Source: Hyphomicrobium sp. LHD-15 (GTDB lineage Bacteria > Pseudomonadota > Alphaproteobacteria > Rhizobiales > Hyphomicrobiaceae). Taken from it: a stretch of 64,000 bases of DNA. The translations under genes and the position numbers were made by a program. The stretch spans positions 62,001-126,000 of the forward strand of contig NZ_JAVIFT010000004.1 of NCBI RefSeq assembly GCF_031157355.1, in the 5' to 3' direction. Of this stretch, positions 4,164 through 7,224 are shown one piece after another (position 1 is the stretch's first letter; each line of letters starts with the position of its first letter). Under the pieces are notes generated by a model. The model worked only from the letters and a program-made list of their open reading frames with translations, was not told the DNA's origin and made no database searches.

Positions 4164-4466
4164 ATGACCTATGACACCGACAACGAGGAGCAGCCTCACT
4201 CGGGGGCGTTGTTGCGGCTCGCAACCCTCGTCATCGGCAGTGTCGAGATCATCCTTTTCGTGCTGTTCGTCCACCTCATGCTGCAATCAAGCGATCCCCT
4301 CGGGTCCGAGATCGGCGAGGGCATGACGGCGGTGATCGCCGTGCCTTTGATCCTGTTCACGCTGCCGGGACTGCTGCTCGCCTGGCTCAATCGTGCCCCT
4401 CGGGTCGCGCATACTTTGGTGCTGCTCGCCCTGCCGGCCGCCGGAGTTGCATGGTCTTACGCATAA
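4164..4466 (+). CDS. Small three-helix membrane protein
   Basis: A 100-residue protein with a hydrophilic N-terminus (MTYDTDNEEQPHSG) followed by three hydrophobic segments at about residues 18-42, 52-73 and 80-98. It should be an inner-membrane protein. The frame is open back to 4116, but ATG 4164 gives the more usual short soluble N-terminus. I know of no function. It precedes the pqqA region, but the strong promoter at 4597 separates the two transcription units. Confidence 0.55.
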   Translation: MTYDTDNEEQPHSGALLRLATLVIGSVEIILFVLFVHLMLQSSDPLGSEIGEGMTAVIAVPLILFTLPGLLLAWLNRAPRVAHTLVLLALPAAGVAWSYA

Positions 4467-4596
4467 GGCGCGTCGCGGCGAGCCAAGCGTGCGAATTTTC
4501 TAATTGATATCATTCAATATTTTTCGATCTTGTCGCGATAAGCTGAGCTTTGCGTGCCGATAAAATTGCCTGATGTGCAGATCACGCACTTGCGAT

Positions 4597-4625
4597 TTGC
4601 CGTTATCGAGGCCTGCGACTATATA
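4597..4625 (+). promoter_or_regulatory. Predicted sigma-70 promoter of pqqA copy 1
   Basis: TTGCCG at 4597-4602 and TATATA at 4620-4625 are separated by exactly 17 nt. Transcription from here would leave a leader of about 55 nt before the pqqA ATG at 4688. Seen in sequence only. Confidence 0.5.
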
Positions 4626-4687
4626 CCCATCAGAACTAGTTGGGCTGGCGGCCCGCTGGTCACCTGAACATTCCAAGGAGGAATACC

Positions 4688-4777
4688 ATGAAGACCTGGA
4701 TGAAGCCTTCGGTTCGCGAGCAGGAAGTCGGCCTCGAGGTTACCTCGTATCTGCCGGCTGAGATCGACCTCATCTAA
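4688..4777 (+). CDS. pqqA: PqqA, coenzyme PQQ precursor peptide (copy 1)
   Basis: A 29-residue peptide, MKTWMKPSVREQ...IDLI. It carries the invariant Glu17 and Tyr21 of the motif E-V-T-S-Y, which PqqE cross-links and later enzymes excise to give pyrroloquinoline quinone, the redox cofactor of methanol and other alcohol dehydrogenases. It has an ideal Shine-Dalgarno (AAGGAGG at 4676-4682), a sigma-70 promoter and its own terminator, so it is a stand-alone transcript. No pqqB, C, D or E lies in the window. The peptide matches copy 2 at 5377 except for Leu28/Ile28, while seven codons differ only at silent positions. Confidence 0.93.
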   Translation: MKTWMKPSVREQEVGLEVTSYLPAEIDLI

Positions 4778-4801
4778 GTCGATCGGCTTTTGTCGAATTC
4801 G

Positions 4802-4837
4802 GACGGCGGTCGCCAAAGCGGCCGCCGTCTTTATTTT
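4802..4837 (+). terminator. Rho-independent terminator of pqqA copy 1
   Basis: A 12-bp GC-rich stem (GACGGCGGTCGC paired with GCGGCCGCCGTC, one G-U) with a CAAA loop is followed by TTTATTTT. It lies 25 nt after the pqqA stop. Confidence 0.9.
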
Positions 4838-5326
4838 GTGCATTTGAATCGCCGATCCGTCTTCACGATCTCGTGCTTTTCTGACGCCAACTCTAATCGT
4901 TTCCAATTATGGAATAGCCGGTTTCGCACTGGCTTTATCGCGCGCCTTCTTTGATGCGCGAGACGCCTCTGCCAGACGCGGGAGCAGAGCGCAGGAACTC
5001 GTCCGCCACGCACATCGCCTGCCCCTAGGTAGATGCTCCTCCGGCTTCCGGCTCGACGCCATCGGATGCGCAAATCATAGCGATTTTACTGATACAAATG
5101 CTGCATCGAGGCGCGCCTGCGATCGCCGCTTCGGCGAGACCCACACCGGCTTAAGCAACGTATCATTGCCTTTCCAAGGCTTCCGACGCCGTGCTATTTC
5201 GCTTTCGGCCGTTGAGGTTTTTGTGGGCTTTTCGAACCCCGAAAATGCTACACCGTAGCATCAGCCCCGCTGATAGAACGCAAATGAAAATACAATTGGT
5301 AATAGATGGGGCAGCTGCCTACTTAT
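4838..5326. other. Non-coding gap between the two pqqA copies
   Basis: I see no supportable gene in this interval of about 490 bp. It contains a 6-bp perfect inverted repeat with a 3-nt spacer at 5246-5260 (TGCTAC ACC GTAGCA), which is a possible operator for copy 2. A weak TTGGTA...TACTTA promoter-like pair lies at 5296-5325 (18-nt spacing). Confidence 0.5.
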
Positions 5327-5358
5327 AGAGCGTGCGAAGCTTATTCGTTTCGCGCTCT
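5327..5358 (+). promoter_or_regulatory. Leader hairpin in front of pqqA copy 2
   Basis: AGAGCG-TG-CGAA at 5327-5338 pairs with TTCGCGCTCT at 5349-5358. The hairpin ends two bases before the AAAGGAGGAA ribosome binding site (5361-5370). It could stabilise the short mRNA or modulate ribosome access. Copy 1 does not have it. Confidence 0.45.
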
Positions 5359-5376
5359 TAAAAGGAGGAACTACCC

Positions 5377-5466
5377 ATGAAGACTTGGATGAAGCCCTCG
5401 GTTCGCGAGCAGGAAGTTGGCCTCGAGGTCACCTCGTACCTGCCGGCCGAGATCGATATCATCTGA
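5377..5466 (+). CDS. pqqA: PqqA, coenzyme PQQ precursor peptide (copy 2)
   Basis: A second 29-residue PqqA, ending IDII instead of IDLI, with the same Glu17/Tyr21 pair that PqqE joins. Seven silent codon differences and one conservative replacement separate it from copy 1. The peptide is therefore held by selection and this is not a very recent duplication. It has a strong Shine-Dalgarno (AAAGGAGGAA), a leader hairpin and its own terminator. It is monocistronic; the next gene is a GNAT acetyltransferase 150 bp downstream. A high-copy precursor peptide made from several loci would fit a methylotroph with a large PQQ demand (inference). Confidence 0.93.
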   Translation: MKTWMKPSVREQEVGLEVTSYLPAEIDII

Positions 5467-5489
5467 TATCGTTCGACTTTCGGTCTTTA

Positions 5490-5527
5490 GCGCGGCGGCC
5501 GCTTCCAGCGGCCGTCGCGCTTCTTTT
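5490..5527 (+). terminator. Rho-independent terminator of pqqA copy 2
   Basis: A 13-bp stem (GCGCGGCGGCCGC with GCGGCCGTCGCGC, one G-U pair) around TTCCA is followed by TTCTTTTTT. Confidence 0.9.
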
Positions 5528-5619
5528 TTGCGCGTAGACCATATTTCGCAACCTGGACTAGCCAGGCGGGTACGGATCGGCAACACTCCGGTCTCCACCC
5601 CCTAGGATCTTGTCATACC

Positions 5620-6165: not shown

Positions 6166-7224
6166 ATGACACGTCTGGAGAAAAGCCCCGAAGCCCGCCT
6201 CGCGTGGGTCGATGTCGCGAAGGGGCTCTGCATCGTGCTCGTGGTGCTGATGCACGCGACGCTCGGGGTCGAGAAAGCCACCGGCGCCGAAACCGGCCTG
6301 CACGGCTTCATCGAATGGGCGCGGCCGTTCCGCATGCCGGACTTCTTCCTGATCTCCGGCCTGTTCCTCGCCGCACGCATCGACCGTCCGTGGCGCAGCT
6401 ACCTCGATACCAAGGTCGTGCACTTCGCCTATTTCTATGTGCTCTGGCTGACGATCCAGTTCGCGCTCAAGGCGCCGGGCATGGTGGCCGAGAGCGGTGC
6501 GGCGGCGACGCTCGCAGATTATCTCACGAGCTTCCTGGTGCCGTTCGGAACGCTGTGGTTCATCTATCTCTTGATGATCTATTTCGTCGTCGCCAAGCTT
6601 CTGGAGCCGGTGCCGAAGTGGATCGTGCTCGCGGTCGCGGCTGCGCTGCACGTGTTCGCGCCCGCGAGCGGCGTGTTCATCGTCGACGAGTTCTCGAACC
6701 GCTTCGTGTTCTTCTATTCGGGCTATGCGCTGGCGCCTGTCGTGCTTGCGTTCGTGGATCGGCTCAAGGACGTGCCCGCCATCCCGCTCGTGGCTGGGCT
6801 GACCGCGTGGGCCGGCTTCAACGCGCTCGGGGTCAATTCAGGCGTTGCGCTCACGCACGGCCCCGACCTGATCTTCTCCTATGTCGGCATTGCCGCGGTC
6901 ATCGCCTTCAGCGTGCTCATCACGCATCGCGCGGCCGGAGACGTGCTCGCCTACTGCGGCCGGAACTCGATCGCGGTCTATCTCGCGTTCACCGTTTTCA
7001 TGGGACCGGTCAGGATCGTCCTGCTCAAGCTTTCCGGCGGCGAGGCGGCGACGGCCATCGCGCTCGCATCGGCTGCGGCCGGCATCGTTGGCGCACTCGT
7101 CCTGCAATGGGCCGTCAAGGGAACGTGGGCTGGCTTCCTGTTCACGCGGCCGGCGCTGTTTCGCCTCAAGCCGCGGGGAGGAGAGGTCAGGGCATCGCCC
7201 CGGGTTCAGCCGACAGCGGCCTAA
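6166..7224 (+). CDS. Acyltransferase 3 family membrane protein
   Basis: A 352-residue integral membrane protein with about ten hydrophobic segments. The N-terminal AWVDVAKGLCIVLVVLMHA, with the Asp and His found at this point in acyltransferase-3 (OpgC/OafA-like) enzymes, and MPDFFLISGLFLA identify the family. Such proteins move acyl groups, often acetyl or succinyl, across the membrane onto glycans or other envelope molecules. There is no SGNH domain, unlike the gene at 53025. ATG 6166 is chosen because GAGGCGAAG lies just upstream and the extra N-terminal residues of the longer frame are Arg-rich. The substrate is unknown. Confidence 0.8.
   Translation: MTRLEKSPEARLAWVDVAKGLCIVLVVLMHATLGVEKATGAETGLHGFIEWARPFRMPDFFLISGLFLAARIDRPWRSYLDTKVVHFAYFYVLWLTIQFALKAPGMVAESGAAATLADYLTSFLVPFGTLWFIYLLMIYFVVAKLLEPVPKWIVLAVAAALHVFAPASGVFIVDEFSNRFVFFYSGYALAPVVLAFVDRLKDVPAIPLVAGLTAWAGFNALGVNSGVALTHGPDLIFSYVGIAAVIAFSVLITHRAAGDVLAYCGRNSIAVYLAFTVFMGPVRIVLLKLSGGEAATAIALASAAAGIVGALVLQWAVKGTWAGFLFTRPALFRLKPRGGEVRASPRVQPTAA

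Follow-up and report, generated by a model that had tools for sequence, protein, structure and literature searches.

Two genes for PqqA, the precursor peptide of PQQ, lie close together in the 64,000 nucleotide stretch of Hyphomicrobium DNA analysed here (the window), and the genes for the PQQ biosynthetic enzymes are absent from their neighbourhood. Copy 1 (MKTWMKPSVREQEVGLEVTSYLPAEIDLI) occupies positions 4688-4777 and copy 2 (MKTWMKPSVREQEVGLEVTSYLPAEIDII) positions 5377-5466, both on the plus strand, as are all of the pair's features described below. Each encodes 29 amino acids followed by a stop codon and scores 30.8 bits against Pfam PF08042 (cut-off 21.1 bits) and 27.2 bits against NCBIfam TIGR02107 (cut-off 20 bits), and 599 bp separate them. 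As the initial annotation had stated, both genes are complete and differ by seven silent codon changes and a single Leu28/Ile replacement; the stop codons, TAA and TGA, differ too. Its further claim that the peptide is under selection is borne out, as the values of pS and pN between the copies are 0.36 and 0.015, respectively (Fisher p = 8e-5), which supports purifying selection on the PqqA peptide of the pair.

The absence of pqqBCDE noted at the outset is a feature of the surroundings of the pair but not of the genome. When the 4.29 Mb genome was searched for further pqqA genes and for pqqBCDE, as the initial annotation had proposed, eight PqqA matches were returned: the head of a pqqABCDE operon, the head of a pqqADE cluster and six orphans. 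The operon, at 328.5 kb in contig C1, is headed by one pqqA, and its pqqB, pqqC, pqqD and pqqE (locus L040) score above the NCBIfam cut-offs. The orphans are the window pair and single genes at C1:375.8 kb (C1:375,831), C2:973 kb, C5:136 kb and C1:1184.9 kb. Grouped by neighbouring genes, the loci were assigned to groups A (pqqABCDE), B (the window pair), C, D, E, F and G (pqqADE). Among named relatives, H. zavarzinii ATCC 27496 was the closest found, and pqqA copy number is 5-7 in the seven other genomes of the genus. The pqqADE cluster (L039:8474-9990, about 1,320-1,321.5 kb in C1) is on the minus strand and encodes a divergent PqqA (MTSLTPACLEENVTLTWVAPAYCDVRLGFEVTAYVYVR) and a PqqE that scores above the NCBIfam cut-off; genes for a Crp-like regulator, a U32-peptidase-like protein and a UbiD-like protein were recognised nearby by eye. 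The proposal that dosage or differential control of the substrate sets PQQ supply is a sound idea with partial support. The pair makes up two of the eight copies, and the operon elsewhere has a pqqA of its own.

In each of the seven Hyphomicrobium genomes read, both copies are present and the locus is syntenic; an eighth genome (G003) was left out. In three other genera, a single pqqA shares at least one of its two downstream neighbours with the pair (L090, L098 and L078, the last at a contig end). As the matching locus in these genera holds one pqqA, the pair appears to have arisen by duplication of an older orphan locus in the Hyphomicrobium lineage. Gene conversion between the copies was also considered and is unsupported because copies 1 and 2 (B1 and B2) are no closer in the same genome (8.0 differences) than when taken from different genomes (8.1 differences).

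Across 66 PqqA copies, operon copies included, 18 of the 29 positions are invariant. They include E17 and Y21, the Glu-x3-Tyr residues that are cross-linked by PqqE, and the residues between them. Orphan PqqA peptides might act otherwise than as PQQ precursors, for example in lanthanide handling. Methylobacterium extorquens AM1 has orphan pqqA genes; in M. extorquens, the response of the orphans pqqA2 and pqqA3 depends on the form in which lanthanide is provided, and the study raises the possibility that PqqA belongs to a lanthanide uptake system (PMC11317620). With the residues used by PqqE invariant in orphan and operon copies alike, we regard such a role as very improbable.

Both copies have their own ribosome binding site and terminator, as originally described. 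The Shine-Dalgarno sequences are AAGGAGG (4675-4681) for copy 1 and AAAAGGAGG (5360-5368) for copy 2, and a terminator scan placed intrinsic terminators at 4801-4830 and 5489-5521, with fold z scores of -5.9 and -5.4 relative to shuffled sequences. The clear promoter claimed for at least one copy fared less simply. A generic sigma-70 scan of 4450-5600 found no promoter, and it is cross-species conservation instead that supports a promoter at each copy. The probable -10 element of copy 1, CTATATA (4619-4625), is retained in all seven species, and that of copy 2, CCTACTTATA (5318-5327), is placed by its position and its similarity to CCTATTTA in the orthologs. A leader hairpin had been reported for copy 2 only. 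That is incorrect, as copy 1 also has one, at 4640-4658, with 17 nt (GGGCTGGCGGCCCGCTG) invariant in 7/7 species, though its fold z score against shuffles is only -1.6. The copy 2 hairpin (5327-5358; z -2.3) recurs with altered sequence in the orthologs. Rfam searches of the pair, the other pqqA loci and a putative RNA adjacent to oxyR (see below) returned one tRNA and otherwise sub-threshold matches only.

Further upstream, each copy is preceded by a candidate OxyR-type operator. The pattern used here is a 40-mer composed of a 15 bp dyad, ATMAG-N5-CTKAT, then N18 and YRATTRG. Copy 2 matches it exactly at 5260-5299, where the dyad ATCAGCCCCGCTGAT (5260-5274) is followed by CAATTGG. Abutting this operator is the palindrome GCTACACCGTAGC (5247-5259) pointed out in the initial annotation, which is real, is retained in 7/7 species and, within the pair, belongs to copy 2 alone. 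An alignment of the upstream regions of copy 2 and its orthologs gave a common order of GCTACAnnGTAGC, with the first base pair variable, ATCAG-N5-CTGAT, GAAAATACGATTGG and a -10 element resembling CCTATTTA. When the genome was searched with an 18-mer covering the palindrome, allowing up to two mismatches, the only other match was upstream of the group C orphan at C1:375.8 kb, with two mismatches. The palindrome, with its one variant in the genome, points to a possible second regulatory input.

In copy 1, the candidate operator (4560-4599) consists of the dyad ATAAAATTGCCTGAT (4560-4574) followed by CGATTTG, and another dyad, ATAAG-N5-CTTTG (4538-4552), ends exactly 7 nt before it. Tandem dyads with this 7 nt spacer precede copy 1 in 7/7 Hyphomicrobium genomes, and no other occurrence of the pattern was found on either strand of 3.2 Mb of DNA. 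The 15-7-15 arrangement is the geometry of the OxyR consensus; the letters (ATMAG/CTKAT) differ from it, the dyad having AT-MAG where the Escherichia coli consensus has ATAG, and oxyR and catalase sites within the family deviate from the consensus letters likewise. The view that the two copies are under different control therefore stands in part: the operators differ in quality and geometry and only copy 2 has the palindrome, but both copies have an OxyR-type operator and a leader hairpin.

The dyad and its spacing are the same in groups B2 and C and in other genera. In seven Hyphomicrobium genomes, exact matches to the 40-mer were found at copy 2, at group C and at one further site that is kept in all seven. 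In the five genomes read at this point, the further site falls on the start codon of a LysR gene that is transcribed divergently. The two redox cysteines of OxyR are present in its protein (GHCLRDQALTYC), which is encoded in the present genome as well, and OxyR is the best PDB match (4x6g, E 1.1e-58), although the score is below the NCBIfam OxyR equivalog cut-off. Opposite this oxyR, the same operator and promoter lead into a non-coding stretch of about 150 nt that ends in a strong terminator (L179:4313-4530; about 850,312-850,530 in C1). This putative short RNA is kept in the five Hyphomicrobium genomes aligned, a similar terminator is present in some other genera, and it matches no Rfam family; the arrangement resembles oxyR-oxyS of E. 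coli.

Outside the genus, 16 genomes (15 of the same family and one of another) were searched, and all but three matches with at most one mismatch are upstream of an orphan pqqA or beside oxyR; the three are unexplained. At three such loci, Pfam confirmed that the gene on the side of the operator where pqqA would lie encodes a catalase or peroxidase. Across 347 genomes of the order there are 54 exact matches (nine of them from three Hyphomicrobium genomes); base composition predicts about 0.9, and the reversed pattern gave 3. We read 27 loci, recognising catalase, OxyR and PqqA by short sequence motifs: 17 are beside a divergent oxyR, eight precede an orphan pqqA, one precedes katA alone and one is unexplained. 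Catalase or katG is downstream in 13 of the 17 oxyR-adjacent loci. The 40-mer was derived from pqqA promoters, so there is no circularity in its finding oxyR-catalase regions. The 29 pqqA loci read from other parts of the class had no strong match to the operator.

This distribution bears on plain gene dosage, in which the extra pqqA genes would raise the basal amount of precursor for methanol dehydrogenase from a shared strong promoter with no peroxide control. The literature on multi-copy pqqA takes precursor amount to be the limiting step, and in Methylosinus trichosporium OB3b the expression of a lone pqqA resembles that of mxaFI and greatly exceeds that of pqqBCDE (PMC3615186). A generic strong promoter would leave unexplained why exact matches are found at oxyR-catalase regions and orphan pqqA genes and almost nowhere else, and we consider dosage by itself a rather unlikely account. 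Dyads of the T-N11-A type are typical of LysR regulators generally, and another member of that family, responding to methanol or a different C1 signal, could use an OxyR-like site at the orphans; a response of orphan pqqA genes to lanthanides is reported for M. extorquens and RH AL1. Against this, the site abuts oxyR itself, its orientation is the same ahead of catalase genes, and no different LysR gene is beside the sites read. Another LysR-type regulator is accordingly an unlikely choice.

A matrix trained on oxyR-adjacent sites only was then compared with a background of 7714 windows, in which the maximum was 12.4 bits. The window pair scored 17.0 bits (copy 1) and 19.2 bits (copy 2). All copy 2 orthologs (19.2-28.9 bits) and all group C orphans (16.9-25.8 bits) exceed the background maximum, while copy 1 orthologs range from 4.3 to 21.2 bits, with five of seven above it and two below. 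Group D scores are mixed because of its spacing, which in most members is shifted by one base and so departs from the full 40-mer. The matrix recovers most orphan pqqA promoters in this way, but scores at the pqqABCDE promoters and in groups E and F are below zero, except in genome G020, in which four tandem pqqA genes directly upstream of pqqBCDE (L077:5833-6905) have such sites, including at least two exact ATCAG-N5-CTGAT dyads; another pqqA, with the same upstream genes, is at a contig end in this genome.

The region upstream of pqqABCDE and its leader (L040, about 6240-6500) contains a different set of elements, the dyad CACGAANTCGTG, TTGACAAGC, GATCCGCAGACTGA and GGCCCTCGGCGGGG, which are kept across several genera; there were no Rfam matches in this region. 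Because the conserved elements of the operon, notably the CACGAANTCGTG dyad and TTGACAAGC, differ from those of the orphans, enzyme and substrate supply look to be separately controlled.

As the same 40-mer operator is present at oxyR-catalase regions and at orphan pqqA genes, control of the pair by OxyR is suggested. We consider it probable, on the pattern of conserved sites, that the pair are orphan suppliers of PqqA to the enzymes of the distant pqqABCDE operon and that the peroxide sensor OxyR controls both copies along with most orphan pqqA genes of the family. One peptide is consumed per PQQ, and the orphans, as parts of a dispersed set of eight, would provide it. Since each orphan appears to be a stand-alone transcription unit, precursor supply could change with no change in the catalytic PqqBCDE. 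The dyad is predicted to lie approximately 60 bp before the transcription start, with the weaker repeat 7 bp further on reaching the -35 zone, a position and orientation that match those at catalase promoters beside oxyR. Catalase genes of other bacteria are known to be activated by oxidised OxyR, and such activation is the simplest reading of the operator placement here: oxidised OxyR would recruit RNA polymerase and more PqqA would be made under peroxide stress. Counting against control by OxyR are the misfit of groups E and F and most of group D to the full 40-mer, the two low-scoring copy 1 orthologs, the departure of the dyad from the E. coli consensus letters and the sub-threshold NCBIfam score of the OxyR protein. 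In addition, the published data on orphan pqqA genes tie them to lanthanides and methanol rather than to peroxide.

More tentatively, and as a possibility we put a little short of even, the PQQ precursor may have been drawn into the peroxide-stress regulon of the Hyphomicrobiaceae. OxyR would then raise PqqA together with catalase and also, in Hyphomicrobium, with the short RNA encoded opposite oxyR, and PQQ or a product derived from PqqA would belong to the response of methanol-oxidising cells to oxidative stress or be coupled to it. Extra pqqA genes have been reported in methylotrophs for over a decade, and no proposed regulator was found in the accessible papers. If OxyR is that regulator, cofactor supply would be linked to peroxide sensing and the separate location of substrate and enzyme genes would have a rationale. 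A regulator would also be of use for PQQ production, in which Hyphomicrobium strains are already employed. Control of pqqA by OxyR was not found to be described in the literature searched, which consisted mainly of titles and abstracts, with most subscription papers outside it.

Multiple orphan pqqA genes have already been published, Hyphomicrobium included, and the new part is the candidate OxyR-type operator at their promoters. In the accessible parts of the sources, five pqqA genes are given for Methylovorus MP688 (cited in PMC11317620), 3-12 for Methylophilaceae (PMC4109929), three for RH AL1 (PMC10848612) and five for Hyphomicrobium FJNU-6, which include a nearly silent pqqADE and a separate pqqA3 that is among the most expressed copies (PMC9851590). 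In these methylotrophs and in AM1, as here, several pqqA genes lie apart from the one set of pqqBCDE, and FJNU-6 shares the pqqADE cluster. Those parts of the papers name no OxyR site, whereas the genes described here are a tandem pair conserved in synteny and preceded by OxyR-type operators. The lone pqqA of OB3b is likewise away from pqqBCDE, but a single copy is reported there. The closest parallel in promoter structure is with the divergent oxyR-katA and oxyR-katG promoters, which have the same 40-mer operator, spacing and orientation as the pair. In the pair, the gene downstream encodes the PQQ precursor peptide rather than an enzyme that removes peroxide, and there is no oxyR next to it.
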